The notes below the pieces were generated by a model. That model saw only the letters and a program-made list of their open reading frames with translations. It searched no databases and was not told the origin of the DNA. A stretch of DNA of 18,609 nt from Candidatus Zixiibacteriota bacterium. Lineage in GTDB: Bacteria > RBG-13-66-14 > B26-G2 > WVWN01. Location: assembly GCA_030613505.1 (NCBI GenBank), contig JAUWLW010000050.1, positions 1 to 18,609 of the forward strand, in the 5' to 3' direction. The translations under genes were made by a program, and so were the position numbers. Positions 1 through 18,020 of the stretch are shown here, piece by piece (position 1 is the stretch's first letter; each line of letters begins with the position of its first letter).

Positions 1-116
1 GCGGGCGTCGTCGGCTCGAGGCGGTCCGGCACCCGCGGCGTCGCGCCCTCCTCCTCGCCGCCGCAGGCCAACGTCAACAAAGCAACGGCTACGGATGCGA
101 TTATTACCTTTTTCAT
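1..116 (-). CDS. Tandem-array lipoprotein L12 (N-terminal fragment, cut by window edge)
   Basis: This is a partial gene: only the first 38 codons lie in the window and the gene runs off the left edge. It starts with ATG at 116, preceded by AGAGGT in the 12-nt spacer after L11. The fragment has a Lys-Lys n-region, a hydrophobic core and a lipobox-like LTLAC ending at Cys18. A short acidic linker (GGEEEGA) and the PRVPDRLEPTTPA segment seen in L7-L11 follow. At the DNA level it resembles the 5' end of L8 most closely, apart from an extra GAG codon and a few substitutions. It shows that the array continues beyond the window. The role is unknown. Confidence 0.85.
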   Translation of the reverse strand, partial: MKKVIIASVAVALLTLACGGEEEGATPRVPDRLEPTTP

Positions 117-128
117 GGGGTGACCTCT

Positions 129-737
129 CTATCGATAAAGAACCAACACTTTTCCGAGCGACACAGGTTCAACGCCGGGATACTCGTCGAAGAACTCGCT
201 CGTCCGGTCCCACCATCCCGTAAGGCGCCAGTACTTCTTGCCGCCGGCGCTCTCGTAGCGCTCGAACTCGAAGTTGCAGTAACCGCCGTCGGCGATGAAG
301 CCGTTGAGCTCGTCAATCATCACGAGTAAAGAGAGCGATATGTTATCCGCTCTGTACGTGGTCTCATTCTCGCCGGGGGTGCCGACGCGGCCTGTGGGAA
401 TAGAGAGGTTTATCGCGTAGGCCTTATCGAACATATTTTTTGCGGCCTGTAAGAATTCGGTGCGCGACCACGACTCTGGGATTAGGTAGGTTTTACCCGG
501 CGGCCTTTGACCCACGTCGCGCGGGTCGAAGTAGAAGACGAAGCTGGGGCCGAGCATGGCCTTGAGGAGGTTGACGTCCCGTTGGTTGAACGATATCGCG
601 ACGTTCTTGAGGACGTTGGCGGGCGTCGTCGGCTCGACGCGGTCCGGCGCGCGCGGCGTCACGCCCTCCTCCTCGCCGCAGGCGAACATCAACAATAATA
701 AGGTAACGGCTACCGATGCGATTGTTGCCTTCTTCAC
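129..737 (-). CDS. Tandem-array lipoprotein L11, probable NTF2-like fold
   Basis: This 202-residue predicted exported lipoprotein has a GTG start directly after GGAGGTAACGAC. The signal peptide ends at Cys20 and is one of the less canonical lipoboxes of the set (MFAC). After a Glu-rich linker (residues 21-40) comes a domain opening with a helix (SFNQRDVNLLKAML, 49-62), then FVFYFDPRDVG (66-76), IPESWS (86-91), a central Cys154 in GGYCNFEFE, and WRLTGWWD (170-177) near the end. A helix-then-sheet order closing on an aromatic strand fits the NTF2/SnoaL superfamily, but that is inference. The gene shares long near-identical patches with L6 (for example 238-297 with 3328-3387). The ligand or partner is unknown. 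Confidence 0.88.
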   Translation of the reverse strand: MKKATIASVAVTLLLLMFACGEEEGVTPRAPDRVEPTTPANVLKNVAISFNQRDVNLLKAMLGPSFVFYFDPRDVGQRPPGKTYLIPESWSRTEFLQAAKNMFDKAYAINLSIPTGRVGTPGENETTYRADNISLSLLVMIDELNGFIADGGYCNFEFERYESAGGKKYWRLTGWWDRTSEFFDEYPGVEPVSLGKVLVLYR

Positions 738-749
738 GTCGTTACCTCC
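738..749 (-). promoter_or_regulatory. 12-nt stop-to-start spacer made of the Shine-Dalgarno site (representative)
   Basis: Read on the minus strand, the L10 stop TAG is followed at once by GGAGGTAACGAC and then the GTG start of L11. The same 12-nt spacing recurs at 117-128, 1353-1364, 1971-1982, 2589-2600 and 3207-3218, with only small changes in sequence. The arrangement predicts translational coupling along one polycistronic message and leaves no room for internal promoters or terminators between these copies. Confidence 0.85.
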
Positions 750-1352
750 CTAGTTAAAAAGCGCTAAGATTTTACCTAGCGACTCCCCGCCAGCGCCCGG
801 GTTTTCGTCGTGACCCTGGCTCGTCCGGTCCCACCAGCCGGTAAGGCGCCAGTACTTCTTGCCGCCGGCCGATTCGTAGCGCTCGAACTCGAAGTTGCAG
901 TAACCCCCTTCGGCGATAAAGCCGTTGAGGGAGTCTATCATTACGAGGAAAGAGATATTTATGTTATTGGCTTTGTACGTGGTCTCGTTTTCGCCGGGGG
1001 TCCCGACGCGGCCTGTGGGTATAGCGAGGTTTATCGAGTAGGCCTTGTCGAACATATTATTTAGGGCCTGCCAGAATTCCGTGTAGGACCACGATTCCGG
1101 GATAACGTATTCGCTGCCCGGCGGGCTTCGGCCCACGTCCCGCGGGTCGAAGTAGAAGACGAAGCTCTCGCTCAGCATGGCCTTGAGGAGGTTTATGTCG
1201 CGTTCGTTGAACGCTATCTCGACGTTCTTGAGGACGTAGGCCGGCGTCGTCGGCTCGACGCGATCCGGCACGCGCGGCGTCACGCCCTCCTCGCCGCCGC
1301 AGGCCAACGTCAATACGGCGACGGCTACGGATGCGATTATTACCTTCTTCAC
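750..1352 (-). CDS. Tandem-array lipoprotein L10, probable NTF2-like fold
   Basis: This 200-residue lipoprotein has a GTG start after GGAGGTAACGAC. The signal peptide ends at Cys18 (LTLAC) and Gly is at +2. It carries FNERDINLLKAML, FVFYFDPRDVG, IPESWS, GGYCNFEFE and WRLTGWWD like its neighbours. It has one residue fewer than L7-L9 in the loop after PPG (PPGSEYVIP). Its C-terminal variable loop (SQGHDENPGAGGES) is close to L7 and L8, whereas the central YSINLAIPTGRVG segment matches L6, so the copy looks mosaic. The 3' end is only 12 nt from L11. Role unknown. Confidence 0.88.
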   Translation of the reverse strand: MKKVIIASVAVAVLTLACGGEEGVTPRVPDRVEPTTPAYVLKNVEIAFNERDINLLKAMLSESFVFYFDPRDVGRSPPGSEYVIPESWSYTEFWQALNNMFDKAYSINLAIPTGRVGTPGENETTYKANNINISFLVMIDSLNGFIAEGGYCNFEFERYESAGGKKYWRLTGWWDRTSQGHDENPGAGGESLGKILALFN

Positions 1353-1364
1353 GTCGTTACCTCC

Positions 1365-1970
1365 CTATCTAAATAGCGCTAGTATCCTACCCAGCGACGT
1401 AGGGTTTATACCGGGGCTTTCATCGAAGAACTCGCTCGTCCGGTCCCACCACTTAGTGAGGCGCCAGAATTTTTTACCCGAGGCCGCCTCGTACCTCTCG
1501 AACTCGAAGTTGCAATATCCCCGTTCGACGATGATACCATCCCGCTCGTTTATCATCACGAGTAACGAGATTTTTACGTTGTCGGCTTTGTGCGTGGTCT
1601 CATTCTCGCCGGGGGTCCCGACGCGGCCGGTCGGTATTGACAGCGAAATCCTATACGCCTTCCTGAACATATTATTCGCGGCCGATAAGAATTCGGTGCG
1701 CGACCACGACTCCGGGATTTTATATTCAGGTTTCCCCGGCGGGTTCCGCCCTACGTCGCGGGGGTCGAAGTAAAAGACAAAGTTCTCGCTGAGCATGGCC
1801 TTGAGGAGGTTGATGTCGCGCTGGTTGAACGATATTGCGACGTTCTTCAGGACGTTGGCGGGGGTCGTGGCCTCAACGCGGTCCGGCACGCGCGGCGTCA
1901 CGCCTTCCTCCTCGCCGCAGGCCAACGTCAATACGGCGACGGCTACGGATGCGATTATTACCTTCTTCAC
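1365..1970 (-). CDS. Tandem-array lipoprotein L9, probable NTF2-like fold
   Basis: This 201-residue lipoprotein has a GTG start after GGAGGTTACGAC. Its signal peptide is identical to that of L10 over the first 18 residues. The body keeps the FYFDPRDVG, IPESWSRTEF, GYCNFEFERYE and WWD motifs but is the most altered of the distal copies in its middle: MINERDGIIVERGYC replaces the usual MIDELNGFIADGGYC, and WRLTKWWD has Lys where most copies have Gly. The C-terminal loop (SEFFDESPGINPTS) pairs with L11. This is a functional-looking divergent copy with no frameshift or stop. Confidence 0.88.
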   Translation of the reverse strand: MKKVIIASVAVAVLTLACGEEEGVTPRVPDRVEATTPANVLKNVAISFNQRDINLLKAMLSENFVFYFDPRDVGRNPPGKPEYKIPESWSRTEFLSAANNMFRKAYRISLSIPTGRVGTPGENETTHKADNVKISLLVMINERDGIIVERGYCNFEFERYEAASGKKFWRLTKWWDRTSEFFDESPGINPTSLGRILALFR

Positions 1971-1982
1971 GTCGTAACCTCC

Positions 1983-2588
1983 CTAGTTGAATAGCGCGAG
2001 TATTTCACCGAGCGACACCCCGCCGGCGCCCGGGTGTTCGTCAAAGGACTGGCTCGTCCGGTCCCACCAGCCGGTAAGGCGCCAGTACTTCTTGCCGCCG
2101 GCCGACTCGTACCGCTCGAACTCGAAGTTGCAATACCCTTTATCGGCGATGAAGCCGTTGAGCTCGGTTATCATAACGAGCAACGAAATATTTACGTTAT
2201 CGGCTTTGTACGTAGTCTCGTTCTCGCCGGGGGTCCCGACGCGGTTGGTAGGTATGGAGAGCGAAATGGAGTAGGCTTGACCAAACATATTGCCCACGGC
2301 GTTCCAGAATTCTACGTAGGCCCACGACTCCGGGATTCTATATTCAGGTTTCCCCGGCGGGCTACTACCGACATCGCGCGGGTCGAAGTAGAAGACGAAG
2401 TTCGTGCTCAGCATGGCCTTGAGGAGGTTTATATCCCGTTCGTTGAACGATATCGCGACGTTCTTGAGGACGTTAGCGGGCGTCGTAGGCTCGAGGCGGT
2501 CCGGCACCCGCGGCGTCACGCCCTCCTCGCCGCCGCAGGCCAACGTCAATACGGCGACGTTTAAGGATGCGATTATTACTTTCTTCAC
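1983..2588 (-). CDS. Tandem-array lipoprotein L8, probable NTF2-like fold
   Basis: This 201-residue lipoprotein has a GTG start after GGAGGTTACTAC. The signal peptide ends at Cys18 and has an unusual Asn10 in the hydrophobic core (ASLNVAVLTLAC). Two blocks are virtually identical in DNA to L7: 1974-2094 (120 of 121 bases) and 2236-2318 (83 of 83). The sequence between them differs at many positions and instead resembles L10 (FEFERYESAGGKKYW). This alternation is the clearest sign of gene conversion or unequal crossing-over in the array. All core motifs (FYFDPRDVG, GYC, WRLTGWWD) are intact. Confidence 0.88.
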   Translation of the reverse strand: MKKVIIASLNVAVLTLACGGEEGVTPRVPDRLEPTTPANVLKNVAISFNERDINLLKAMLSTNFVFYFDPRDVGSSPPGKPEYRIPESWAYVEFWNAVGNMFGQAYSISLSIPTNRVGTPGENETTYKADNVNISLLVMITELNGFIADKGYCNFEFERYESAGGKKYWRLTGWWDRTSQSFDEHPGAGGVSLGEILALFN

Positions 2589-2600
2589 GTAGTAACCTCC

Positions 2601-3206
2601 CTAGTTGAATAGCGCGAGTATTTCACCGAGCGACACCCCGCCGGCGCCCGGGTGTTCGTCAAAGGACTGGCTCGTCCGGTCCCACCACCCGGTAAGGCGC
2701 CAGTACTTCTTGTCTTCTTTAGTGGTGTACTTCTCGAACGCGAAGTTGCAGTAACCGCCGTCGGCGATGAAGCCGTTGAGCTCGTCTATCATTACCAGAA
2801 GCGATATCGATATGTTCTCCGCCTTATAGTTGGTCTCGTTCTCGCCGGGGGTACCGACGCGGTTGGTAGGTATGGAGAGCGAAATGGAGTAGGCTTGACC
2901 AAACATATTGCCCACGGCGTTCCAGAATTCTACGTACGACCACGACTCCGGGATTTTATATTCAGGTTTCCCGGGCGGGCTTTGGCCCACGTCGCGCGGG
3001 TCGAAGTAGAAGACGAAATTCTCGCTTAGCATGGCCTTGAGGAGGTTGATGTCGCGACTGTTGAACGCTATCTCGACGTTCTTGAGGACCGCGGCCGGGG
3101 ACGTCGGCTCGAGGCGGTCCGGCACCCGCGGCGTCACGCCCTCCTCCTCGCCGCAGGCCAACAATAACATCGCGGCAGCTATGGTAAAGATTATTACTTT
3201 CTTCAC
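2601..3206 (-). CDS. Tandem-array lipoprotein L7, probable NTF2-like fold
   Basis: This 201-residue lipoprotein has a GTG start after GGAGGTAACGCC. The signal peptide ends LLLAC at Cys18, a good lipobox. The start of the mature protein (GEEEGVTPRVPDRLEP) is of the L8-L12 type. The segment FAFEKYTTKEDKKYWRL differs from the YESAGGKKYW of L6, L8, L10 and L11 and is closer to the YPTKEGKKHW of L1. The C-terminal 23 residues are identical to L8. The gene sits one 618-bp period upstream of L8. Confidence 0.88.
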   Translation of the reverse strand: MKKVIIFTIAAAMLLLACGEEEGVTPRVPDRLEPTSPAAVLKNVEIAFNSRDINLLKAMLSENFVFYFDPRDVGQSPPGKPEYKIPESWSYVEFWNAVGNMFGQAYSISLSIPTNRVGTPGENETNYKAENISISLLVMIDELNGFIADGGYCNFAFEKYTTKEDKKYWRLTGWWDRTSQSFDEHPGAGGVSLGEILALFN

Positions 3207-3218
3207 GGCGTTACCTCC

Positions 3219-3818
3219 CTATCTAAATAACGACAGTATCCTACCGAGCGACGTAGGAGCAATGCCGGGATATTCGTCGTAACCCTGGCTCGTGCGGTCC
3301 CACCACGCGGTAAGACGCCAGTACTTTTTGCCGCCGGCGCTCTCGTAGCGCTCGAACTCGAAGTCGCAGTAACCGCCGTCGGCGATGTAGCCTTCGAGGT
3401 AGGTTATCATTACGACGAGGGAAATACTTATTTCTTCGGCCTTGTACGTGGTTTCATTCTCGGCCGGCGCGCCAACGCGGCCCGTGGGTATAGCGAGGTT
3501 TATAGAATACGCCTTGTCGGACATTTTTTTTGCGGCCTGTAAGAACTCGTCGCGCGACCACGACTCCGGGATAATATATTGTCTCCCCGGCGGCCTTTGC
3601 CCCACGTCGTGAGGGTCGAAGTAAAAGACGAAGTTCTCGCTCAAGGCCGAAGCGAGAACTTTAATATCCCGTTGGTTAAAGGAAAGCGCGACGGCCTCGA
3701 GCGCTTCCGCCGGCGACTCGGCGCCGGTGGGTTCGGGCGTGGGGCCTTGGGTGCCGTCGTCGCAGCCGAACGCCGCGACGAGCGTAAGGACGCCGCACAA
3801 CGTTATTGACCGTTTCAT
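3219..3818 (-). CDS. Tandem-array lipoprotein L6, probable NTF2-like fold
   Basis: This 199-residue lipoprotein starts at ATG 3818, set by GGGAGGT just upstream. The frame stays open further upstream to 4166, but that extension lies inside L5 in another frame and is not coding. The signal peptide ends at Cys19 (AAFGC) and Asp is at +2, unlike the Gly of L7-L12. The first ~60 residues are divergent (ALEAVALSFNQRDIKVLASAL), whereas the second half carries the common YSINLAIPTGRVG, FEFERYESAGGKKYWRLT and WWD segments. The mix suggests a junction between an older N-terminal half and a sequence shared with L10 and L11. Confidence 0.88.
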   Translation of the reverse strand: MKRSITLCGVLTLVAAFGCDDGTQGPTPEPTGAESPAEALEAVALSFNQRDIKVLASALSENFVFYFDPHDVGQRPPGRQYIIPESWSRDEFLQAAKKMSDKAYSINLAIPTGRVGAPAENETTYKAEEISISLVVMITYLEGYIADGGYCDFEFERYESAGGKKYWRLTAWWDRTSQGYDEYPGIAPTSLGRILSLFR

Positions 3819-3841
3819 TTCGAAACCTCCCTGAAACGTAT

Positions 3842-4444
3842 TTACCTGAACGACGCTATAATCCGGCCCAGCGACGCGGCCTCGGCGCCCGGATGCCCGT
3901 CGTAGGTCACGCCCGTATGGTCCCACCACCCGGTAAGGCGCCAGTGCTTTTTGCCTTCCTTGCCGGCGTAACTCTCGAACTCGTAGTCGCAGTACCCTTC
4001 GTCGGAGACGTAGCCGTTGAGCTCGTCGACCATTACGCGGAGCGATAACGATACGTTCTCCGCCCGGTACGTTGTCTCGCTCTCGGCCGGCGTCCCGACG
4101 CCTTTGGTGGGGATGGCCAGCGAGATGGAGTACGCCAGGATGAACATATTGTCCGTAGCCGTCCAAAATTCGTCGTAATACCAGTACTCCGGGATGACGT
4201 ACTTGCGCCCGGGCGGCTTTTGTCCCACGTCCGCCGGGTCGAAGTGGAAGAAGAAATCGGCGCTCAGCATGTTCTTTAAGAGGTCGATATTTCGCCGATT
4301 GAACGCCATCTCGACGTTACGCAGGACGTGGGCGGGGGACGTGGGCTCGAGGCGCTCCGGCGCCCGCGGCGCCACGCTCTCCTCCAGGGTGCAGGCCAGT
4401 AATGCCGTCGCGACGGCCGCGAAAACGAAAACTGCCTTCTTCAT
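3842..4444 (-). CDS. Tandem-array lipoprotein L5, probable NTF2-like fold
   Basis: This 200-residue lipoprotein starts at ATG 4444, with GAGGT upstream. The signal peptide has a lipobox ending LLAC at Cys18; +2 is Thr followed by LEES, unlike its neighbours. Core motifs are altered but recognisable: FFFHFDPADVG replaces FVFYFDPRDVG, IPEYWYYDEF replaces IPESWS, GYCDYEFESY and WRLTGWWDHT follow. The spacer to L6 is 23 nt, so this copy and those upstream of it lie outside the strict 618-bp repeat. The reading frame is intact. Role unknown. Confidence 0.88.
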   Translation of the reverse strand: MKKAVFVFAAVATALLACTLEESVAPRAPERLEPTSPAHVLRNVEMAFNRRNIDLLKNMLSADFFFHFDPADVGQKPPGRKYVIPEYWYYDEFWTATDNMFILAYSISLAIPTKGVGTPAESETTYRAENVSLSLRVMVDELNGYVSDEGYCDYEFESYAGKEGKKHWRLTGWWDHTGVTYDGHPGAEAASLGRIIASFR

Positions 4445-4455
4445 ATCATACCTCG

Positions 4456-5052
4456 TTATTTATACATCGCCAGTATCTTGCCGAGCGACGTGGGGATTAA
4501 GGCCGGCGCCCGGTCGAAGTAATCGCTCGTGAAGTCCCACCATCCCGTGAGCCGCCACGACTTTTCCTTTTTCTCGTTGTAGTACGTCTCGAACGCGAAA
4601 TTGCAATAGCCGCCGTCGGCGATGAAGCCGTTGACCTCGTCGACCATCACCAGCAGCGATATCCGTACGTTCTCGGCCTTGTACCGGGTCTCTTTTTCAC
4701 CCGGTGTCCCGATGCCGCTCGTGGATATGTATAGGTTAATGGAATAGGCTTTGGCGAACAGGTTGCTCAACGCCCGCCAAAACTCCGTATACGACCACGA
4801 CGTCGGGATCTCATAACCGGGTTTGCCCGGCGGGTTCTGCCCCACGTCGTCGGGGTCGAAGTAGAAGACGAAGTCCGGGCTCAGGCATTTTTTCAGGACG
4901 TCTATGTTTCTTTGGTTGAAAGATAATTCGACGCCGTCTATCACGTCCGCCGGCAGATATTCAAGCGGCGGTCTCGTAATCCCCTCCTCCTCTCCGCAGC
5001 TGAGCGCCAGCAGCGCCGTGACGACTATAACGCCAACTATTACTTTCTTCAT
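4456..5052 (-). CDS. Tandem-array lipoprotein L4, probable NTF2-like fold
   Basis: This 198-residue lipoprotein starts at ATG 5052 with GGGAGGT upstream. The signal peptide ends LALSC at Cys19, with Gly at +2. It has FNQRNIDVLKKCLSPDF (an extra Cys compared with other copies), FYFDPDDVG, IPTSWSYTEF, GGYCNFAFETYYNEKKEKSWRLTGWWDFT and SLGKILAMYK. The YYNE(K/Q)KEK segment and WWDFTS pair it with L2 rather than with adjacent L3 or L5. The mature N-terminus is shorter, with no TPR-PDR motif. The spacer to L5 is 11 nt. Confidence 0.87.
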   Translation of the reverse strand: MKKVIVGVIVVTALLALSCGEEEGITRPPLEYLPADVIDGVELSFNQRNIDVLKKCLSPDFVFYFDPDDVGQNPPGKPGYEIPTSWSYTEFWRALSNLFAKAYSINLYISTSGIGTPGEKETRYKAENVRISLLVMVDEVNGFIADGGYCNFAFETYYNEKKEKSWRLTGWWDFTSDYFDRAPALIPTSLGKILAMYK

Positions 5053-5073
5053 CTCGTAACCTCCCTGAGTCGG

Positions 5074-5667
5074 CTATTCGTACAACGATAGTATGTACCA
5101 GAGCGGCACGTGCTCAATACCCGGCGGCTCCTCGCCGCCGCCCTCGGTATTGTCCCACCAATTAGTTAGCCGCCACACGTCCTGGCCTTGCTCGTTCTTG
5201 TATTTTTCGAACTCGAAGTGGCAGTACCCCTCGTCGGCGAGGTAGCCGCGGTTCTCGTCGACCATCACGAGGAGGGACACGTTAACGTCGCCGGCTCGGA
5301 ACGTAGTCTCTTCCGGCCCCGGCTCGCCGACGCCGCCCGTGGATATGGAGAGGTTAATCGCGTACGCGCTGTTGAACATATTATACGCGATATGCCAAAA
5401 CTCCGTAAAGCTATAAATGGGAGGCGGGCGGCACGGCGTCCCTTCCGGTCGGGGGCGGCCTATTTCGCCGGGGTCCGTGTAGTAAACGAAGTTGGGGCTT
5501 AGTGATCTCTTTAAGAGGTCAATATTCCTTTGGTTGAAGGATACTTCTATATATGTTAAAACTCCTACCGGCGTATTCACCGGCGGCGGCGGTGGCGGCG
5601 GTTCCTCCTCGCCGCAGGCGAGGGGCAGGAGGGCCAAGGCCAAGGCCAAAGATATAGTCCTGTTCAT
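5074..5667 (-). CDS. Tandem-array lipoprotein L3, divergent member with Pro-rich linker
   Basis: This 197-residue lipoprotein starts at ATG 5667 behind GGAGG. The signal peptide ends LPLAC at Cys18, and a run of seven prolines (CGEEEPPPPPPP) links it to the domain. It is the most divergent member: FVYYTDPGEIGRPRPEGTPCRPPP replaces the FYFDPRDVG-PPG-IPESW block and brings an extra Cys, and the C-terminus is HVPLWYILSLYE. The central Cys (GYCHFEFEKY) and WRLTNWWD are kept. The conserved core with a rebuilt loop suggests different binding specificity on a common scaffold, which is inference. Confidence 0.86.
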   Translation of the reverse strand: MNRTISLALALALLPLACGEEEPPPPPPPVNTPVGVLTYIEVSFNQRNIDLLKRSLSPNFVYYTDPGEIGRPRPEGTPCRPPPIYSFTEFWHIAYNMFNSAYAINLSISTGGVGEPGPEETTFRAGDVNVSLLVMVDENRGYLADEGYCHFEFEKYKNEQGQDVWRLTNWWDNTEGGGEEPPGIEHVPLWYILSLYE

Positions 5668-5682
5668 ACTAAGGCCTCCGAT

Positions 5683-6297
5683 TTATTCCCGATAATATAG
5701 AGCTAATAACTTCCCCAGCGACCCGGGCGCAACCGCCGCACTTTCGTCGTAACCCCCGCTCGTGAAGTCCCACCACCCGGTGAGCCGCCACCGCTTTTCC
5801 TTTTGCTCGTTGTAGTAAGCCTCGAACGCGAAGTCGCAGAAGCCTTTGTCTATCATAAAGCCGTTTACCTCGTCGACCATTACGAGCAGGGATATCGTAA
5901 CATTCTCCGCTTTATACGTGGTCTCGTTTTCGCCCGGCTCGTGCAGGGGCCCCACCCGCACGAAGAGCGAAATCGAATACGCCATATTGAGCATTCCGTT
6001 CGCGGCTTTCGTGAAGTCGTCGTGCGACCACGACTCGGGGATTTTATAACCAGGCTTCCCGGGCGGGCTCGCGCCCACGTCGCGCGGGTCGAAGTAAAAG
6101 ATGAATTCGGGGCTGAGGGATTTTTTCAGGTAGTCAATATAGCGCTGGTTGAAGGATATCTGTACCGCTTTTAGGACCGTCGCCGGCGACGTGTATTCGG
6201 GCTTAGGCGGTTCGCCGTTGATAACCCTCTCGTCGCAGCCGGCGAACGCCAACACCGCCGCCGTGACGGCCGTCGTTAAGGTTATTGTGCGTTTCAC
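5683..6297 (-). CDS. Tandem-array lipoprotein L2, probable NTF2-like fold
   Basis: This 204-residue lipoprotein has a GTG start at 6297 with GGGAGGT upstream. The signal peptide ends FAGC at Cys21 with Asp at +2. The domain has SFNQRYIDYLKKSLSPEFIFYFDPRDVG, IPESWSHDDF, a changed strand (SLFVRVGPLHEPGENETTY), GFCDFAFEAYYNEQKEKRWRLTGWWDFT and a C-terminal YYRE extension. GFC replaces the GYC found in every other full copy. It resembles L4 in the YYNE segment. Spacers are 19 nt on the L1 side and 15 nt on the L3 side. Confidence 0.87.
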   Translation of the reverse strand: MKRTITLTTAVTAAVLAFAGCDERVINGEPPKPEYTSPATVLKAVQISFNQRYIDYLKKSLSPEFIFYFDPRDVGASPPGKPGYKIPESWSHDDFTKAANGMLNMAYSISLFVRVGPLHEPGENETTYKAENVTISLLVMVDEVNGFMIDKGFCDFAFEAYYNEQKEKRWRLTGWWDFTSGGYDESAAVAPGSLGKLLALYYRE

Positions 6298-6316
6298 AAT
6301 AAGACCTCCCGCATAT

Positions 6317-6940
6317 TTAACGGTACATCGCCAGGATTCGCCCCAGCGACGACGGTGTCAAGCCGTTAGGCTTACCGTTAAGCTCGCTCGTACGGTCCCA
6401 CCAATTGGTAATCCGCCAGTGCTTTTTGCCTTCTTTTGTCGGATACGACTCGAACTCGAAATTGCAATAACCGTCGGCGACGTAGCCGTTGAGCTCGTCG
6501 ACCATTACGAGCAGCGCCAGGTCGATATTGTCCGCCCGGTACGTGTTTTCTTCCGGCTCCGCCTCGCCTACGCCGTTCGTGGATATCGATAGGTCGATCG
6601 TATAAGCCTTGTTGAACATATTGTGCGCGGCGTTCCAGAACCATTCATCAGGCCAGGATCCCGAGATTACGTAGTTATTCGGCGGCGTCTGCCCGACGTC
6701 GCGCGGGTCGAAGTAGAAGACGAAGTTGGTGCTTATTGATTTTATTAATAGGTCTATGTCGCGGTAATTGAAAGACGCTTCGACGGTTCTTAAGACGTTC
6801 GCGGGTGACGTTAAATCGGGCCAACGGGGCGGCGGCGGCGGGGGCGGCGGGTCGTACATTTCGTCGCAAGCCGTCGCGGCGATGAGCAATGCCGCAACGA
6901 TCGCCGGTATTAGTTTCCGTATGTCTTGACTCCCCAACAC
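6317..6940 (-). CDS. Tandem-array lipoprotein L1, first array gene, Pro-rich linker
   Basis: This 207-residue lipoprotein is given from GTG 6940. The signal sequence would then be MLGSQDIRKLIP through a hydrophobic core to Cys25 (ATAC), with Asp at +2 and an eight-proline run (DPPPPPPPP) as linker. An AGGT lies upstream of the GTG. However, GGGGAGTCAAGAC sits inside this leader exactly where other copies have GGGAGGTAACGAC, followed by ATA CGG AAA where they have GTG/ATG AAG AAG, so the true start is uncertain. The domain is complete: FVFYFDPRDVG, DGYCNFEFESYPTKEGKKHWRITNWWD, SLGRILAMYR. The gene lies 23 nt downstream of the barrel gene, so it is probably cotranscribed with it. Confidence 0.85.
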   Translation of the reverse strand: MLGSQDIRKLIPAIVAALLIAATACDEMYDPPPPPPPPRWPDLTSPANVLRTVEASFNYRDIDLLIKSISTNFVFYFDPRDVGQTPPNNYVISGSWPDEWFWNAAHNMFNKAYTIDLSISTNGVGEAEPEENTYRADNIDLALLVMVDELNGYVADGYCNFEFESYPTKEGKKHWRITNWWDRTSELNGKPNGLTPSSLGRILAMYR

Positions 6941-6963: not shown

Positions 6964-7746
6964 TTAAAAAATGAAGATCGGATTCACGGCGGCGAAAAAG
7001 CGATTGTCGTCGTCGTGCGGGTACCGGTCGCGGGACTCGCCGAGTTTAGTTATCCCCGCCACTGATAGAAGAAGGCCGAAGCGGCCTGCCAAGGGTAAAG
7101 CAAACTCGGCAATGTAGTGGAGCTCGACGATGCGGTCCTTATAACCTATAGGGTTCACCGCGGTCCCGACGTACGTTTGGCGCACGAAAGACTCGCCGTT
7201 CCGCCGGGCGATTTTTAACCCCGGGCCCACGGCGAGGTCCGCCTGCAACCAGTCCCAGGGGTTAAGTCTCGGCCCCAACGTCGCCGCCAGCGAGTAAAGG
7301 TCGCACGTGTACCGCGTCGTAGCGGTGCGGTGGGGCGTCGCGCCGGGGGCGGGGCCCATATCGTAGTTAATTTTGGCCCGGCCGTATTCTGCCCTCAAGG
7401 CCGCGTTCAAGGGCGGCGCGCTGTGGATATATTTAAAATTCGCCGTCGCGCGCCAACCCGTTTCTTTAAGGTCCTCGACCGAGAACTCGTCGTGCCGCCC
7501 TTCGGCGACCGAAAAATAACCGGCCCCGGCTGAGACTTCGAACGGAGCGAACTCCGCCCCGCCGCTAAGGCCGTACGTGAAATCGCGGCTGACTTCCCAC
7601 ACCTTGTGGCCGGGCCAGGCTACCTGCGCAAGCGCTCGGTCCTCCACCGGCGTGCCGTAACCCACCGCCGGCCCAACGGCGACATCGACCGCGCCCGCCG
7701 CGCAGGCCGAGAACGCCAATAACCCTATTATTCCCCTCGTCACCAT
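6964..7746 (-). CDS. Predicted outer-membrane beta-barrel protein
   Basis: This 260-residue protein starts at ATG 7746 with GGAGG five bases upstream. A short signal peptide (MVTRGIIGLLAFSACAAGA) has a likely signal-peptidase I site near residue 19. The mature part alternates polar and hydrophobic residues in segments rich in Gly, Tyr and Phe (for example FEVSAGAGYFSVAEG, WRATANFKYIHS, RIVELHYIAEFALPL) and ends in Phe (NPIFIF), the usual sign of a barrel strand inserted by the BAM machinery. The size would suit roughly 8-12 strands. I recognise no specific family. It lies between the PPC-domain gene and the lipoprotein array, with short gaps, and may be the membrane partner of those lipoproteins (inference). 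Confidence 0.75.
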   Translation of the reverse strand: MVTRGIIGLLAFSACAAGAVDVAVGPAVGYGTPVEDRALAQVAWPGHKVWEVSRDFTYGLSGGAEFAPFEVSAGAGYFSVAEGRHDEFSVEDLKETGWRATANFKYIHSAPPLNAALRAEYGRAKINYDMGPAPGATPHRTATTRYTCDLYSLAATLGPRLNPWDWLQADLAVGPGLKIARRNGESFVRQTYVGTAVNPIGYKDRIVELHYIAEFALPLAGRFGLLLSVAGITKLGESRDRYPHDDDNRFFAAVNPIFIF

Positions 7747-7773: not shown

Positions 7774-8217
7774 CTATTCCGTCCCGATATTCTCCGCGGC
7801 CCAGAGCGCCAGGCCGCCGCAATCCGCTTGCGGGCAGCGCTCGAGCCGGGCCCCCTCGAATTCCCACAGGATTACCTCGGCGACGAATATCTCGCACCCG
7901 GGCATCAGGTGGCCGCCGAAGCCGCGCCCCTCCCGGTCCGAGAGCGACAGGTGCGCGTGGACGAACGGCTCGCCCTCCTTGAGCGAGACGTTGCCGGTGA
8001 GCGCGCAGATCTCCATCTCCTCGTCGAACTCGTTAACTTTATATTCGCGCTTCTCGAGGTCGAAGATGCCGACCGCGGCCTTCCGGAGCGCCCCTATCCC
8101 CGACAGCGCGCCCAGTTCGATACCTTCAACCTTGACCAGTTTATTCAATTCCTCGAGCAGGTCCGCCCCCGGCACCAGCCGCCGCACGACGACCCGCTTG
8201 ACGTTTATGGCGTTCAT
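7774..8217 (-). CDS. PPC/DUF296 domain protein
   Basis: This 147-residue protein consists of one PPC (DUF296) domain, the family found alone in bacteria and archaea and fused to AT-hooks in plants. Diagnostic segments are GALSGIGALRKAAVGIFD (about 36-53), GNVSLKEGEPFVHAHLSL (75-92) and GRGFGGHLMPGC (97-108). His87, His89 and His103 match the trio thought to bind metal in prokaryotic members. It has no signal peptide, so it should be cytoplasmic. The start at ATG 8217 has AGGAG upstream. It is the first gene after the divergent promoter and thus probably leads the barrel-lipoprotein operon. Bacterial members have no settled function. A regulatory role is possible but unsupported here. Confidence 0.88.
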   Translation of the reverse strand: MNAINVKRVVVRRLVPGADLLEELNKLVKVEGIELGALSGIGALRKAAVGIFDLEKREYKVNEFDEEMEICALTGNVSLKEGEPFVHAHLSLSDREGRGFGGHLMPGCEIFVAEVILWEFEGARLERCPQADCGGLALWAAENIGTE

Positions 8218-8348: not shown

Positions 8349-9338
8349 ATGCCCAAAGACTTCGACGTAGAGGAAGTGCCGCCGGACGGCCTCGCGCGGT
8401 TCGACGATTTTCTGGCCGCGTCGCCGCAGGGTACGCTCTTCGCCGGCGCGGCGTGGCTTTCGCTTTTGGCGGGGCAGCTGCCCGGCCGCGTCGTCGCGCT
8501 GGCCTTCGCCGCCGGCGGCGAGACGCGCGCGCTCGTGCCGGTATGGGAGCGCCGCGAGCCATTTTTGGGCGCGACGGCCGAGATTCCGCCGCTCACGCCG
8601 TACTGGGGGCCGTGCTTGCCGCCCGCCGGCGACCTTCGCGCCGAGCGCGTGAAGGCGCGCGACCACGACGTCCTGGCCGCCGTCGCGGCCGAAATTAAGC
8701 GCCGCTGGCGCTACGCCCGCCTTGCTTGCCACCCAACGCTGGCCGACGTGCGGCCGCTCACGTGGGCCGGCTTCCGCGGCGACGCCCGCTACACGTCTAT
8801 ATTACCGCCTGTGCCGGAGGACGAGTTCCTGGCGTCGCTCTCGTCGTCGCTGCGGAACAAATTGAAGCAGGGCGAGGGGCTGGCCGTCGAGGAGAGCGGG
8901 GACGCGGAGCCCTTCGTCGCGATGTACGCCGAGACCTTCGGCCGCCGCGGGATGGCGCCGCCGGTAGCCCCGTCTTTCTTGCGCGCGTTGGCGGCCGAAT
9001 TCTGCGGCTCGGCCGGGGCCATTTTTTATTTGAAGAAAGAAAACGGCGAGGCCGTGGCCGGCCGCCTGGTCCTGTGGGGCCGGCTGGCCGCGTACGATCT
9101 GCTGGCCGCATCATTTGAAGAGGGGCGCGGCCCGCTGGGCGCGTACTTGCTGTGGCGCGAGGTCCGGGCGGTATGGGATAGAGATTTGCCGCTCGATATG
9201 GTGGGCGTCAACGTCGAGGCCATCGCGCGCTTCAAGGAGTCGTTCGGCGGCCTGCTCACGCCGTATTACCAGCTCGCGGCGTACCGCTCGCCGTTGGTTC
9301 GGTTGCTGGCCGCCGCCCGCCGGAGGTTTCGGCGGTGA
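8349..9338 (+). CDS. FemAB/GNAT-like acyl- or aminoacyl-transferase of a glycan cluster
   Basis: This 329-residue cytoplasmic protein has the double-GNAT layout of the Acetyltransf_6/FemAB group. A first half contains ...ASPQGTLFAGAAWLSLL (about 24-40) and PPLTPYWGPCLP (80-91). SSSLRNKLKQG (165-175) matches the usual R-N-K/R segment between the halves. The second GNAT domain ends in the typical MVGVNVEAIARFKESFGG (284-301). Relatives in exopolysaccharide clusters transfer acyl or aminoacyl groups to sugars or lipid-linked intermediates. The start at ATG 8349 follows a TATAAT box but has no clear ribosome site. It overlaps the next gene by 4 bases (GTGA). Substrate unknown. Confidence 0.78.
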   Translation: MPKDFDVEEVPPDGLARFDDFLAASPQGTLFAGAAWLSLLAGQLPGRVVALAFAAGGETRALVPVWERREPFLGATAEIPPLTPYWGPCLPPAGDLRAERVKARDHDVLAAVAAEIKRRWRYARLACHPTLADVRPLTWAGFRGDARYTSILPPVPEDEFLASLSSSLRNKLKQGEGLAVEESGDAEPFVAMYAETFGRRGMAPPVAPSFLRALAAEFCGSAGAIFYLKKENGEAVAGRLVLWGRLAAYDLLAASFEEGRGPLGAYLLWREVRAVWDRDLPLDMVGVNVEAIARFKESFGGLLTPYYQLAAYRSPLVRLLAAARRRFRR

Positions 9339-10939
9339 TAGGCATCCACGTCGGCGAGTGCGGGTTGGGCGCGGCGCGGGCGCGCCACGTGCTGGCGGAG
9401 CTCGCGGTTATGGCGGGCTTGCCGCGCGCCGAAGGCCCGCCGGCGGTGACGCTGGCGCACGGCCGCGGCGGGTTCCCTCCCGGGCCCAAGGTCGTGATAC
9501 CGTGCGAGGCGGAGCACGTCGCGCGCGAGACGCCGCCCGACGCGTGGCGCGACGGCGACGTGGAGGTGCCGATATTGTACCGGGCGCCGGCGCCGAAGGG
9601 GGAGGTCGTTGCCCGGGCCGCGGGCGGCGAACCGCTGGTAGTGCGGAAGGGGGAGGAGGTCCACGTAGCGTTCGACGTCGTGGCCGCGGCGGACTACTAC
9701 CTCGACGGCCGCGGCGAGGTCGGTTGGCCGCGGGACCGGTGCGGCCGGCCGGACCTGCGCGGCGCGCCCCCCTGGCGCCGCGAGTCGGTGGGCGTGGCGG
9801 TCGTCAACCGCTACGCGCGCTTGCTCGCCCGGGCGGCCGAGGCCGCCTGCGAGGCGGCGGGAACGCCGTTGCTCCGCTTCCGATATTGGCCCGACGGCGC
9901 GCCGTTCGCCGCGGCGCTGAGTCACGACGTCGACCGGCTGCGGGCGCCGACGCGGCGGGAAGTGCTGAGGTCGTGGCTGCGCCCCGGTATGGGGGGCGCC
10001 CGGGCCCGCCATAAGCTGCGGGATTTCGTTCGCGGGTCCGTTGCGCTCGAGCCGCTGCCGGCCATCTGGGAGGCGGAAGAGCCGGCGGGAGGCGCGTCGA
10101 CGTTCTTCGTCGGGGCCGTACGGCGCGGCCCGATGGATTTCGCGTACGACCTCGGCGAAGCCGCCGAACTTATAGGCGAGATTAAAGGGACCGGCCGCGA
10201 GGTCGGCCTTCACGGCAGTTATTACGCCTGCGCCGAGGACGCGGCTATGGCCGGGGAGAGGAAGCTCCTCGCCGACGCGGTAGGGCGGGAGGTAGCCGGC
10301 GTACGCGGTCATTATTTAAAGCTGGGCCCCGAGCAGGGGTGGCGTGCCGTGGCGGCGGCCGGTTTCGAGTACGACGCCACGTTCGGATTCGCGAGCGAGG
10401 CGGGCTGGCGGGCCGGCGCCGCGTCGCCGTACCGGCCTTTCGACGGCGACGTAGCTAGGCCATACGACTTCGTCGAGATACCGCCCGCCGTGATGGACGG
10501 CGCGCTGTTTCAATACAAGCGGCTCGGCCCGCGGCAGGCGCTGGCGGCGGCGTTGGCGGTCGTCGACGAGGCCGCGGCGTGCGGCGGCCTGTGCTCCCTC
10601 ATCTGGCACTACCGCGCTTTCCCGGGCGGCACCTTCCCGGAATGGGGCGCCGTATTCCGGGACGTAGTTTCGCATATAGTAGAGGCCGGCGGCCGCGCCT
10701 TAACTCACCGCGAGATAGCGGCCCGTTACCGGCTAAACGCCGCCCTCAAGGTAAAGGCGCCCGCCGCGGACGGCTCGTGCGAGATCGTACTACCGGCCGA
10801 CGTCCCCGGCGACGTCGTCTTCGAAGTCCCGGAAGGTTGGAAGTTGGCGCGGGGCGACGTGCGCGCGCTATCGCCGCGAGCCTTCGCCGTCCCGGCCGGG
10901 GTGCGCGCCGCGGCGGTAGCTTTCACCCGTGAGAGGTAG
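9335..10939 (+). CDS. NodB-type polysaccharide deacetylase-like protein with N-terminal extension
   Basis: This 534-residue protein has a GTG start with GGAGG eight bases upstream, overlapping the previous stop. Residues 1-190 form an N-terminal domain typical of long deacetylase-like proteins in O-antigen clusters (I suspect DUF7033, unverified). The NodB-like part begins at SHDVDRL (196-202), where His-Asp-x-Asp corresponds to catalytic motif 1. It continues through EVGLHGSYY (289-297), VRGHYL (323-328) and IWHYRAF (423-429). The C-terminal ~80 residues form a small beta-rich tail. It has no signal peptide, so it probably acts in the cytoplasm on nucleotide- or lipid-linked sugars. Deacetylase activity is inferred; motif 2 is not the classical HxxxH. 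Confidence 0.75.
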   Translation: MIGIHVGECGLGAARARHVLAELAVMAGLPRAEGPPAVTLAHGRGGFPPGPKVVIPCEAEHVARETPPDAWRDGDVEVPILYRAPAPKGEVVARAAGGEPLVVRKGEEVHVAFDVVAAADYYLDGRGEVGWPRDRCGRPDLRGAPPWRRESVGVAVVNRYARLLARAAEAACEAAGTPLLRFRYWPDGAPFAAALSHDVDRLRAPTRREVLRSWLRPGMGGARARHKLRDFVRGSVALEPLPAIWEAEEPAGGASTFFVGAVRRGPMDFAYDLGEAAELIGEIKGTGREVGLHGSYYACAEDAAMAGERKLLADAVGREVAGVRGHYLKLGPEQGWRAVAAAGFEYDATFGFASEAGWRAGAASPYRPFDGDVARPYDFVEIPPAVMDGALFQYKRLGPRQALAAALAVVDEAAACGGLCSLIWHYRAFPGGTFPEWGAVFRDVVSHIVEAGGRALTHREIAARYRLNAALKVKAPAADGSCEIVLPADVPGDVVFEVPEGWKLARGDVRALSPRAFAVPAGVRAAAVAFTRER

Positions 10940-12290
10940 CGTCCTGTTCGTACCGAGACTCAAGCCGTTCGTCGATTACGCCGCGTTGGCCGAGCTTCTG
11001 GCCGCGGCCGGCGTTGACCTGGCGCGGGAGGCCGTGGCGTACGAGGAGGAATTGCGGTCGTACTTCGGCGCCGCGGCGGTTTACCCCCTCTCCTCCGGCC
11101 GGGGCGCCATAGCCCTGGGGTTGCGGGCGCTGGGCATAGGCCGGGGCGACGACGTCGCCATCCCGGCCTTCACCTGTCCCGCCGTGGCCGACGCCGTGCT
11201 CTCTCTGGGCGCTATCCCGCACCTTGTCGACATATCGCCGCGCCACTTCGGCCTGGAGCCCCGTAGTCTGCGACGGGTCCTCGCCCGCGGCCGGACCCGC
11301 GCCGCGGTGGTAGCACCGATCTTCGGCGCGGTCCCACCCCAGGACGAAGTACGGGAACTCCTCTCCGAACGCGGCGTCCCCTGGCTCGAGGATGTCGCGC
11401 AGGCCTTCGGCTCGAGTCGGGGCGGCCGCCCAGCCGGCTCGACGGCGCCGCTGGCCGTACTCTCCACCAACTTCGACAAACCCTACACCACCGGCCGCGG
11501 CGGCGTTCTGGTGGTCAACGACGCCGCGCTGGCGCCCGAGGTGGAGAAGTTGGTGGATTCGCTGCCGGCCCAGACGAGGGCGGAGGCCGAGACGATATTG
11601 AAAGGGCTCGTTGTCTCGGATTACCTCTTCGACGCCGAAAGTTACGAGCCGTTCGTCTCGGTGGACCTGGGGTACCTGTACGCCGCCGCCGAGGGGGACG
11701 CGTACGACCTCGCCAACCTCGTCGCCAGGGGCGCAACCGTCGCGGCGCGCCACGCCGTCGCCGCCAAGGGTGGGTTAATGCCGACCCGCAAGCCGCCTTT
11801 GTCCTGGAGGTTGGTTCGGTGGTTCTTCCCCAGCTCCGCGGTCCCGTCGTTGGGGGCGGTGAAGCGGCTCGAGCTGTTGCTGACCGCGCTGGGCAAACGT
11901 CACCTGGCGGCGGCTCGGTCGGACGGCGAACGGCGGCGGAAGCTCGCCGCGCTGTTCGACGACGCCTTTGCCGGGAGCACGTCCTTCCGGAGCCCTAATT
12001 GGGGCGCCGCGGGCGACGAGCCGTGGCCCATACGCTACCCGTTGTTCGTGCGGGATTGGGCCCGCCGGCCGGAAGTCATTAAAAGGTTGGCGAACGCCGG
12101 ATACGAGGCCGGGCCGTTCATATATCCGCGGCCGCTCTCGGGAATGTTCCCGTACTATAAACTTTCGCGAACTACGGGCCGATATCTGCGCGGGGCCTGG
12201 CGCGCCGCGGCCGCGGTCGTGAACCTCCCGCTGCACGCCGGCGTAGACGAGGACGACGTGCGTAAGATGGCGGAGGCGGTGCGCGGATGA
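10929..12290 (+). CDS. DegT/DnrJ/EryC1-type PLP aminotransferase
   Basis: This 453-residue fold-type-I PLP enzyme likely aminates a keto-sugar nucleotide in surface-glycan synthesis. Visible signatures are YPLSSGRGAI (52-61, cofactor phosphate loop), DVAIPAFTCPA (75-85), the PLP-ring Asp in LEDVAQAFG (153-161, Asp155), and Lys184 in STNFDKPYTTGRGG, the Schiff-base lysine followed by the usual Gly-Gly. The C-terminus has IYPRPLSGM and VNLPLHAGVDEDDV, as in the family. A segment of roughly 80 residues (about 205-285) between the Lys motif and the dimer-helix region looks longer than in typical members (400 residues or fewer). GTG start; it overlaps the preceding gene by 11 bases and the next by 4. 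Confidence 0.85.
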   Translation: MRGSVLFVPRLKPFVDYAALAELLAAAGVDLAREAVAYEEELRSYFGAAAVYPLSSGRGAIALGLRALGIGRGDDVAIPAFTCPAVADAVLSLGAIPHLVDISPRHFGLEPRSLRRVLARGRTRAAVVAPIFGAVPPQDEVRELLSERGVPWLEDVAQAFGSSRGGRPAGSTAPLAVLSTNFDKPYTTGRGGVLVVNDAALAPEVEKLVDSLPAQTRAEAETILKGLVVSDYLFDAESYEPFVSVDLGYLYAAAEGDAYDLANLVARGATVAARHAVAAKGGLMPTRKPPLSWRLVRWFFPSSAVPSLGAVKRLELLLTALGKRHLAAARSDGERRRKLAALFDDAFAGSTSFRSPNWGAAGDEPWPIRYPLFVRDWARRPEVIKRLANAGYEAGPFIYPRPLSGMFPYYKLSRTTGRYLRGAWRAAAAVVNLPLHAGVDEDDVRKMAEAVRG

Positions 12291-13243
12291 ACGGCGCGAG
12301 AAGCGTATCTTTGATAATCCCGACGTTGTCTCGTTTAAACGACCTCGAGATAACGCTTGAAGCGGTACAGGCGGGGACCGTTTTGCCGGATGAGATCATT
12401 ATCGTGGATGCGAGCCCGGACGATCGGACGGAGCGATTCATCGGCGAGTTAGCGTTGAGAACCCGCGCCGTCGAGTTTGTTTATATCCGCGCGGAGCGGC
12501 CCGGCGTCCCCGGCCAACGCAACGCCGGCCTGACGCGGGCGCAGGGGGATTTTATCCTTTTCGTGGATAACGACGTTACGGTCGCGTCCAATTTTATCGA
12601 GGAACTGCTCAAAGCCTTCGATAATCCGAAAGTTGGCGCCGCTTGCGGCCTGATATCCAACCAATTCCTACCGGGCGGTTATACCCGTTTTTTGCAATGG
12701 TTATTCCGGCAAACACGGTACGCCGGTCGCTCGCACTATCAGCGTTCGGGTTTCCCGACGTTCCTTTACCGGCCGCGAAAGCCTTCCGTAGTGGGCGCCT
12801 TGACGGGCGGCCTTACTATGTTCAGGAGCGAGGCTATCGGCGATTTCCGATTCGACGAACGCATCCTTTTCATCGACGACGATAGCTATTCGCTGGACCT
12901 TCGGGCCCGCGGCTGGGAGTTAATGCAGTGGTCGGCGGCGCGCGCCGAGCACCGGGAGGCGGGCGAAGGAAGGAGCTTCGCCGGCCGGGTGCGAAGTAAC
13001 GTCGTAGGTCGTCGCCTTTTACACAAACGCTACTTCCCGCAAAACATACTTAACGTTTCAAGTTACTATTACGGCGTACTGGGAGGCGCGGCCGTGGCGG
13101 CGTTGCGGCTTAAACCGCGCCTCATGCTGGGGAACGTTTTGGGCCTGTGGGATGTACTCCGGACCGGGCGCGTCGCGTCGAAGCCGAGCCGGGAGGCAAT
13201 CTCGCCCCAAAATCCGAATGACGGCGGAAGCGGCAAAACTTAA
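12287..13243 (+). CDS. Glycosyltransferase family 2 (GT-A)
   Basis: This 318-residue GT-A enzyme transfers a sugar from a nucleotide donor. It opens with SVSLIIPTLSRLNDLEITLEA (6-26) and has IIIVDAS with Asp41, PGVPGQRNAGLTRAQGD (72-88), the metal-binding FVDNDV (92-97), GGLTMFRSEA (174-183) and an acidic FIDDDSYSLDLRARGW (195-210) with His222 after it, which together match GT2 acceptor and catalytic regions. The C-terminal ~90 residues are basic with short hydrophobic stretches (YYYGVLGGAAVAAL) and may touch the membrane. The start is at ATG 12287 (ATGA overlap) with GGAGG 10 bases upstream. Base composition is visibly lower in GC than both neighbours. Acceptor unknown. Confidence 0.9.
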   Translation: MNGARSVSLIIPTLSRLNDLEITLEAVQAGTVLPDEIIIVDASPDDRTERFIGELALRTRAVEFVYIRAERPGVPGQRNAGLTRAQGDFILFVDNDVTVASNFIEELLKAFDNPKVGAACGLISNQFLPGGYTRFLQWLFRQTRYAGRSHYQRSGFPTFLYRPRKPSVVGALTGGLTMFRSEAIGDFRFDERILFIDDDSYSLDLRARGWELMQWSAARAEHREAGEGRSFAGRVRSNVVGRRLLHKRYFPQNILNVSSYYYGVLGGAAVAALRLKPRLMLGNVLGLWDVLRTGRVASKPSREAISPQNPNDGGSGKT

Positions 13244-14111
13244 GATCGCCCTGGTGGGAATGGAGGAGCTGCCGGCGCTCACGGCGCTCCGGCTGCGCCG
13301 GGCCGGGTACGCCGGCGCGCGGGCGCTGGAGGGCGCGCGGGGCTTCGGCCTTTTGCGCGCCGTCCGGCCGTACGACGTCTTTCACGCCGTGTACCCGGTA
13401 TACTATTTTAAGTGGGTTCCGGCGCTGAAGGCCGCCGGCAAGAAGGTCGTCTTCCACTGGATAGGTTCCGATTGGTATGAATGCCGCCGCAGGCCGGCGC
13501 TGCGGGCGCTGTTCGGCGCGGTGCGGCGCGGCGTCGACCTCCACATAGCCGACGCGCCGTGGCTGGTGGACGACATGGCCGCGGCCGGCGTCGACGCGCA
13601 CCCCGTGCCGACCATCTCGGAGAAGATGACCGGCGCGCTCGAGCCCTTGCCCGGACTTTTCAAGGTGATGGCGTACGTGCCGGACCGGCGGCGCCGTTTC
13701 TACGGGTGGCCCGTCGTCAAACTGGTCGCCGAGCGGTTCCCCGACGTGGAGGTAATAGCGGTGGGCGGCGGCGCGGAGGGGAACGCGCCGCGCAACGTCC
13801 GCTTCACCGGCCTGGTGGACGGCGACGCGATGGGCCGCCTATATCGGGAGATTTCGGCGCTCGTTCGCCCCACGGCGCACGACGGCCTTTCGCAAATGGT
13901 GCTCGAAGCGCTGCTGCGCGGCCGGCAAGTGGTGTGGAGCCGCGAGTTCCCCTTTTGCGTCCGCGCGACGGCGCCGGAGGAGTTCGTCGCCGCGGTAGGC
14001 CGGCTGGCGTCGTCCTGTCCGCCGAACGTCGACGGCTCGCGCTACGTCGCCGAAAACTATTCCGCCCAGGCGGCGTCGCGGGCGCTGGCCGCGGCGTACG
14101 ACGATTTATAA
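13218..14111 (+). CDS. GT-B glycosyltransferase (group 1/GT4-like)
   Basis: This 297-residue protein is given from ATG 13218; the frame is open to 13152, but the extra residues are basic and non-homologous in appearance and lie inside the GT2 gene. LKIALVGMEELPAL (8-21) starts the N-terminal Rossmann domain, and HWIGSDWYE (80-88) and VDLHIADAPWLVDDM (106-120) follow. The C-terminal donor domain has ERFPDVEVIAVGGG (172-185), NVRFTGLVDG (193-202) and LVRPTAHDGLSQMVLEALLRG (215-235), which corresponds to the GT4 region where an acidic residue binds the nucleotide sugar. It is shorter than usual (350-400). It overlaps GT2 by 26 bases, has no good ribosome site, and is followed by a terminator. 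Confidence 0.83.
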   Translation: MTAEAAKLKIALVGMEELPALTALRLRRAGYAGARALEGARGFGLLRAVRPYDVFHAVYPVYYFKWVPALKAAGKKVVFHWIGSDWYECRRRPALRALFGAVRRGVDLHIADAPWLVDDMAAAGVDAHPVPTISEKMTGALEPLPGLFKVMAYVPDRRRRFYGWPVVKLVAERFPDVEVIAVGGGAEGNAPRNVRFTGLVDGDAMGRLYREISALVRPTAHDGLSQMVLEALLRGRQVVWSREFPFCVRATAPEEFVAAVGRLASSCPPNVDGSRYVAENYSAQAASRALAAAYDDL

Positions 14112-14190: not shown

Positions 14191-15351
14191 CTACGGGATG
14201 GGGAACTCGTCTTCCGTATATGTGCCGGCGAGCTCGTAATCCCACATGTCGTCGGTGACGGGCCGCCCCTCCAATATGCGTGCGAAGAGCCAGAGGGGTG
14301 TGTGCCAATAGATGCCGTAGCGGCGCAGGTAATAGGGCGACGTCTCTATCGAGTTCGCGCCCGGGAGAACGGTCAATAGGCCCTCGTAGCCGGCGTGGAT
14401 GGCGACGCTGACGCCGTAAGAGTTGAACGAGCCGTACGGCCAGGCGAAGGTTCGCACCGGCCTGCCGGTCGCGGCCTCCAGCCGGTATTTGGGATACTTT
14501 ACTTCGCGCTCGAGCCAATAGGGGTAGGCGGCGCCCGTCTTCTTGGCGCTGGCGAGGTTGGCGTGGCTGATGGAGTGGGCGCCGACGGTCACGAGGTCGT
14601 CCGCGGCCAGCTCGCTCAGCTCGTACCACGTCATGGATTTCCCGCCGACGTCGACGTAGTCGGTGTAGATGTAGACGGCGAAGGGGAAGCCGTATTCGGC
14701 GAGCACCGGCCAGGCGAAGTCGTAGACCGAGCGGTAGCCGTCGTCCACCGTTATCACCACCGAGCGGCGCGGCAGCAGGTCCGGTTCCTGCGTTTGGAGC
14801 GCCTCGACGAGCTGGCCTATAGGTATGACCTCGTACCGGTTGCGCGCGATGTACTCGAGCTGCGCCCGGAAGTCGGCGTGGGATACCTCGTACTTGTTGG
14901 CCGGGGATAGCCGGAAGCGGTGGTACATTAAAATGACGCAACGCTTTTCGCCCGGGCCGTAGCCGCCGGCGAACAGGCTCGCGCGGCCGTAGCGCTCGAG
15001 CTCGTCGCCGGACACCGACAGCGCGTCGAACGTGCCGCCCGGTTCTTCGGGTTCGAGCGGCAGCCACAGCGATTTGTCGCCCGCCCGGGCCCAGGCGTCG
15101 AAGACCGCGTCGGCGGCGGGGAACGGGATGTATTCCGAGCCGCGGGCGAAGCTGTCCAACGTGAGCAGGGATGCGTCGCCGACGGCGGGAGCCCGTTCGG
15201 CCGCGGTGGCGTAGGCGTCGATGGGCTCGTCCGCCTGGCCCCAGGCCGGCGCGTACAACGCGGCCCCGCAGAGCGAGGCGGCGACGACGATTACGATATT
15301 TACCCGGGGGAAGGAAGCCGGCCGGCGCCGGCTGGACCTATTCGATCGCAT
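14191..15351 (-). CDS. Exported polysaccharide deacetylase (CE4/NodB)
   Basis: This 386-residue envelope enzyme is of the carbohydrate esterase 4 type. The N-terminus is basic (RSNRSSRRRPASFPR) followed by a hydrophobic segment (about 17-37) that is a signal peptide or anchor. Residues 38-135 are a linker region of unknown fold. The catalytic domain has ILMYHRF (140-146), VITVDDGYRS (199-208, Asp203-Asp204 as catalytic base and metal ligand), VGAHSISHANL (256-266, metal-binding His259 and His263) and TFAWPYGSF (301-309). This arrangement is close to PgaB-type N-deacetylases. The likely substrate is a cell-wall or extracellular poly-N-acetylated glycan. The start overlaps the TPR gene stop by 14 bases, so it is translationally coupled to the signalling operon. 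Confidence 0.87.
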   Translation of the reverse strand: MRSNRSSRRRPASFPRVNIVIVVAASLCGAALYAPAWGQADEPIDAYATAAERAPAVGDASLLTLDSFARGSEYIPFPAADAVFDAWARAGDKSLWLPLEPEEPGGTFDALSVSGDELERYGRASLFAGGYGPGEKRCVILMYHRFRLSPANKYEVSHADFRAQLEYIARNRYEVIPIGQLVEALQTQEPDLLPRRSVVITVDDGYRSVYDFAWPVLAEYGFPFAVYIYTDYVDVGGKSMTWYELSELAADDLVTVGAHSISHANLASAKKTGAAYPYWLEREVKYPKYRLEAATGRPVRTFAWPYGSFNSYGVSVAIHAGYEGLLTVLPGANSIETSPYYLRRYGIYWHTPLWLFARILEGRPVTDDMWDYELAGTYTEDEFPIP

Positions 15352-15964: not shown

Positions 15965-15966
15965 AG

Positions 15967-18012: not shown

Positions 18013-18020
18013 GGGGTCCT

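Follow-up and report, generated by a model that had tools for sequence, protein, structure and literature searches.

The vSaalpha Lpl genes of Staphylococcus aureus are about ten tandem, same-strand lipoprotein paralogues that probably constitute an operon (PMC4470592). Lpl copy number varies from strain to strain, and the conserved core is thought to drive shuffling and duplication (PMC4470592). We have investigated a tandem lipoprotein array in a window of 18,609 bases, the entire contig C13 of a 2.86 Mb, 100-contig MAG from the phylum Candidatus Coatesbacteria, as judged by named relatives. LptD/LptE, a barrel-lipoprotein pair, provides a further point of comparison. The literature was searched for lipoprotein arrays of the NTF2-like or SnoaL-like kind, with no relevant result.

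Eleven complete, open genes encoding 197–207 aa each are arranged head to tail on the minus strand between positions 129 and 6940, uninterrupted by any other gene, and a twelfth copy (w0), starting at position 116, is cut by the contig end, exactly the arrangement given in the original prediction. Neighbouring genes are separated by gaps of 11–23 nt after the stop codons, and a GGAGG-type ribosome site is observed ahead of nearly every start codon. The true start of the sixth copy is the ATG at 3818, the listed ORF (3219–4166) being over-long. The features of the array and its upstream neighbours are as follows.

3–116, minus strand: w0, partial and running off the contig; start codon and N-terminal 38 aa with signal peptide and lipobox
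129–737, minus strand: w1, NTF2-like lipoprotein, 202 aa
750–1352, minus strand: w2, 200 aa, query of the first AlphaFold model
1365–1970, minus strand: w3, 201 aa
1983–2588, minus strand: w4, 201 aa, 85% identity to w5
2601–3206, minus strand: w5, 201 aa, 3' end common to w4 and probably converted
3219–3818, minus strand: w6, 199 aa, ATG at 3818; the start at 4166 in the ORF list is spurious
3842–4444, minus strand: w7, 200 aa
4456–5052, minus strand: w8, 198 aa, with a one-to-one orthologue in G001
5074–5667, minus strand: w9, 197 aa, diverged, with a one-to-one orthologue in G001; second AlphaFold query; sole imperfect lipobox
5683–6297, minus strand: w10, 204 aa, with a one-to-one orthologue in G001
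6317–6940, minus strand: w11, 207 aa, first gene of the array
6964–7746, minus strand: exported protein of 260 aa with a signal peptide, strand-rich and barrel-like by eye, no Pfam match
7774–8217, minus strand: PCC (DUF296) domain protein, which also adjoins the array in G002

The gene for the 260-aa exported protein lies 23 nt upstream of the array on the same strand and is probably on the same transcript, with the PCC (DUF296) gene as the probable opening gene of the transcription unit. Co-transcription is proposed from the tight same-strand spacing of the genes, as a scan upstream of the array found no promoter-like site. A plus-strand cluster at 8349–14111, coding for a FemAB/GNAT-like acyltransferase, a DegT aminotransferase and two glycosyltransferases, is probably a surface-polysaccharide locus and is kept beside the array in G001 and G003. 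The minus-strand genes at 14191–18458, coding for a polysaccharide deacetylase, a TPR protein, a STAS-GAF-HD domain protein and an anti-sigma-type ATPase, stand in a row and are also kept in both genomes. A tRNA scan found none.

The array extends beyond the window. Searching the same genome located three additional complete copies in the same orientation at one end of contig C89, together with a C-terminal fragment, as well as three isolated relatives on C15, C63 and C80. Eleven copies plus one partial in the window and three plus one partial on C89 constitute a tandem paralogous lipoprotein array of at least 15 genes; the earlier count of at least twelve is an underestimate. The C89 fragment and the cut C13 copy may be one gene or two. 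An end overlap between C13 and C89 was looked for and none was found, their adjacency being deduced from strand, gene order and synteny with G001. On C89, the array is bordered on its far side by nfeD; cbiM and additional cobalt-transport-like genes come next (nfeD-cbiMQO), the last two of which were named by eye. In G000 and G003, two species, the final array copy and nfeD overlap by ATGA, suggesting that translation of the last copy and nfeD is probably coupled.

A search of related genomes detected smaller arrays at the same locus in congeners, copy number ranging from three to at least 15 within the genus. G001 has the same array flanks, and its two contigs share 37 identical bases within a copy, which joins them into an array of four; the G003 assembly is broken at the same place. 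G002 and G004, each a single-contig genome, contain arrays of three and five, respectively, plus further copies elsewhere. That chimeric or collapsed repeats in a MAG produced the array as an assembly artefact is extremely improbable: contig ends do break the array in three draft genomes of the genus, but copies differ by 15–57% in sequence, congeners have the same flanks and the single-contig genomes G002 and G004 have arrays too. The smaller arrays at the same place in relatives indicate that the gene family is real and has been repeatedly amplified, and the array itself accounts for the breaks at this locus in draft assemblies of the genus.

As expected for exported lipoproteins, a PROSITE-type lipobox pattern matched in 14 of the 15 copies, the exception being w9, with Pro at −3. 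Asp is present directly after the lipobox cysteine (+2) in w6, w10 and w11. Asp at +2 retains lipoproteins in the inner membrane in E. coli, a rule that may not be that of the host phylum. Pairwise identity between copies is 43–85%, with 33 invariant columns, far past chance. Near-invariant residues of the family (w2 numbering) include Asp72, Gly74, Trp88, Cys152, Phe156, Trp168, Trp173, Asp175 and Thr177, of which Asp72, Cys152, Trp168, Asp175 and Thr177 are candidate catalytic residues. The equivalent of w2 Cys152 is a lone conserved cysteine on strand 4 in 29 of 31 family members, without an obvious disulfide partner, and the protein bearing it is probably periplasmic. Pfam and NCBIfam searches with array members, the family alignment and ten diverged relatives gave no match above threshold. 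The array proteins do not match the Pfam SnoaL/DUF4440 sequence families at the curated cut-off, only sub-threshold hints being observed in single members (MecA_N, E 0.011; DUF4440, E 0.031; SnoaL_2, E 0.042; SnoaL_3, E 0.35). A profile search of solved-structure sequences returned chance-level matches only (best E 0.039).

The predicted fold agrees with the original suggestion of an NTF2/SnoaL-like domain. AlphaFold modelling gave pLDDT values of 90.6 for w2 and 89.9 for the diverged w9, and both models are NTF2-like in structure searches. With w2, 3rob came first (Foldseek E 2.9e-6; VIA Z 14.2, rmsd 2.2 over 124 residues); next in rank were SnoaL-like proteins, ketosteroid isomerases, scytalone dehydratase-like proteins, LinA and epoxide hydrolases. 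The Foldseek searches also matched 8uqf (E 3.5e-5). The family is assigned to the NTF2-like superfamily by predicted fold and to none of the sequence families searched, and the order of strands and loops suggests that the array proteins share a conserved pocket. The NTF2 fold alone shows no function, many members merely dimerising or acting as scaffolds.

The view that the copies are maintained rather than decaying is supported by pairwise dN/dS values of 0.2–0.43, even for copies only 43–55% identical, indicative of purifying selection. In a segment-by-segment comparison of close copies, dN/dS never exceeded 1. The lowest values include those of the last strand and of the loop preceding strand 3 (0.06–0.11), the highest belong to the signal peptide, the linker and three turns or loops (0.27–0.66), and within the folded parts dN/dS peaks in turns and the loop after the last strand (0.34–0.57). 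Eight pairs of copies share tracts longer than those in all 1000 permutations of the polymorphic sites, examples being the 3' ends of w4/w5 and the 5' ends of w2/w3, indicating that gene conversion or unequal crossing-over has been active and that this is a gene-converting multigene family. In the tree, w8, w9 and w10 are each the one-to-one orthologue of a G001 gene, the three following one another as in G001 (support 100/99 to 100/100), and the fourth G001 gene groups with w1–w6 at an open fork (support 85/91), which points to amplification of the array from one ancestor in the host lineage. G004 copies form their own clade and most G005 and G008 copies cluster by genome, suggesting that arrays arose several times.

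The family is present in all 14 sampled genomes of the host phylum and, outside it, in one to three copies in 27 of 323 genomes at E 1e-6. A second phylum contains the family in 20 of 20 genomes at E 1e-5, with runs of three or four; tandem organisation is frequent in both phyla. These runs (L070–L074) lie close to a PorV-like gene (Pfam match, L070); their other neighbours, YjbQ-like, TPR-like and a sigma factor, were named by eye only. A search of viral contigs for family relatives detected none, and there is therefore no sign of a phage origin. Two distant members, at L060 (G005) and L014 (C80), are immediately upstream of a cvpA-like gene, perhaps the ancestral setting. In four genomes, some out-of-array members that are tail-less, lacking SLGxILAxF, directly follow a gene for a conserved ~640-aa outer-membrane beta-barrel protein, barrel identity being 53–62% inside the genus and 22% (E 4e-25) when compared with another order of the class. 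The same-strand pairing of this gene with a tail-less single member is observed at L012:4047-6773, L033, L034, L038 and L076, and in another phylum a gene for a 643-aa exported protein lies ~25 nt upstream of a family gene. The barrel neighbours support an outer-membrane setting for the family, without tying the array itself to a barrel.

We favour, with belief and doubt about evenly balanced, the explanation that the array encodes outer-membrane-anchored periplasmic lipoproteins that bind ligands or process small molecules, multiplied for dose and modest specialisation. In each paralogue a single NTF2-like cone domain would be joined through a short linker, acidic or rich in proline, to a lipidated N-terminal cysteine, and the protein would probably be anchored on the periplasmic side of the outer membrane, with a minority having Asp at +2. 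The pocket of each cone would most likely bind a small ligand of hydrophobic or aromatic character, or process it chemically. In this view a short ancestral run was amplified in the host lineage by unequal crossing-over, with gene conversion keeping the array mosaic. One long message probably carries all copies and continues into nfeD, so that the main effect would be high dose, with individual copies modestly specialised. The analysis shows directly the number, orientation and spacing of the genes, their lipoboxes, predicted fold, purifying selection and mosaicism, the lineage-specific amplification and the conserved locus, whereas we infer co-transcription, outer-membrane location, ligand binding and a dose effect. 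Of the surface display or ligand-binding repertoire in the original prediction, ligand binding is plausible from the fold, but the case for a diversified repertoire is weaker, since the core and the last strand are nearly constant between copies and no segment has dN/dS above 1.

The most serious rival is that these are accessory lipoproteins that bind or plug outer-membrane beta-barrels in the manner of LptE and LptD, the array being a family of partners. The location of tail-less singles directly downstream of the ~640-aa barrel gene in two orders of the class, the 643-aa exported protein preceding a family gene in another phylum and the barrel-like 260-aa protein encoded next to the array are all consistent with such a role. 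Nevertheless we consider it doubtful, as the 260-aa protein has no relative at other loci, no matching set of barrel genes is present near the array and the C-terminal tail of the array members is absent from the barrel-linked ones. A recombining repertoire of variable lipoproteins that alters the exposed surface against phages, predators or competitors is unlikely. Conversion between copies is clear, close relatives differ in copy number and dN/dS in the folded parts is highest in turns and the loop after the last strand, as such a repertoire would lead one to expect; dN/dS above 1 was not observed in any segment, though, folded cores are kept across copies and genera, and instead of a layout of silent cassettes and an expressed site, copies have their own start and ribosome site. 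Hypervariability is made less likely in particular because the cores are nearly alike.

Neutral drift in copy number, in which tandem copies form readily and are retained with little selection on how many there are, would account for the range of three to at least 15 copies at one locus in one genus. It is quite improbable, given that all copies are open, with ribosome sites present and a lipobox in nearly all, that the low dN/dS holds even between the most diverged copies, and that independent arrays occur across several lineages and two phyla. Repeated tandem amplification together with purifying selection suggests that protein dose or fine specialisation matters to the host bacteria, and the barrel and NfeD neighbours, both conserved, are concrete handles on function. 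More speculatively, and we would not expect it to hold as a whole, NTF2-fold outer-membrane lipoproteins may have been expanded independently in several candidate phyla into tandem operons that recombine, yielding ligand-binding proteins or barrel partners as a tunable set. If true, this would be an envelope system without a studied equivalent, built on a widespread, undescribed family. Missing from Pfam and NCBIfam yet present in all sampled genomes of two phyla, the family deserves a name.

Compared with known systems, the array proteins resemble members of the NTF2-like superfamily (SnoaL-like proteins, ketosteroid isomerase, scytalone dehydratase, LinA and limonene epoxide hydrolase) in their predicted cone of N-terminal helices and a curved sheet, the nearest solved structure, 3rob, being a conserved protein of Planctomyces limnophilus. 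In contrast, sequence identity to these proteins is only 5–16%, the array proteins are lipid-anchored with an extra linker and a C-terminal SLGxILAxF tail, and no known catalytic set was identified in them. As in LptD/LptE, an outer-membrane beta-barrel gene accompanies some out-of-array members, although the ~640-aa barrel has no LptD match in Pfam and the link concerns out-of-array members. The array shares with S. aureus Lpl (DUF576, PF04507) the organisation of tandem same-strand lipoprotein paralogues, variable copy number and a probable operon. The array is not a member of the Lpl family, the two having no sequence relation (best PF04507 E 0.21, in only one of the 31 array-family members). 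They also differ in phylum and envelope and in the predicted NTF2-like core of the array proteins, and whereas Lpl is located on a genomic island, the array occupies a locus with conserved flanks within its genus.
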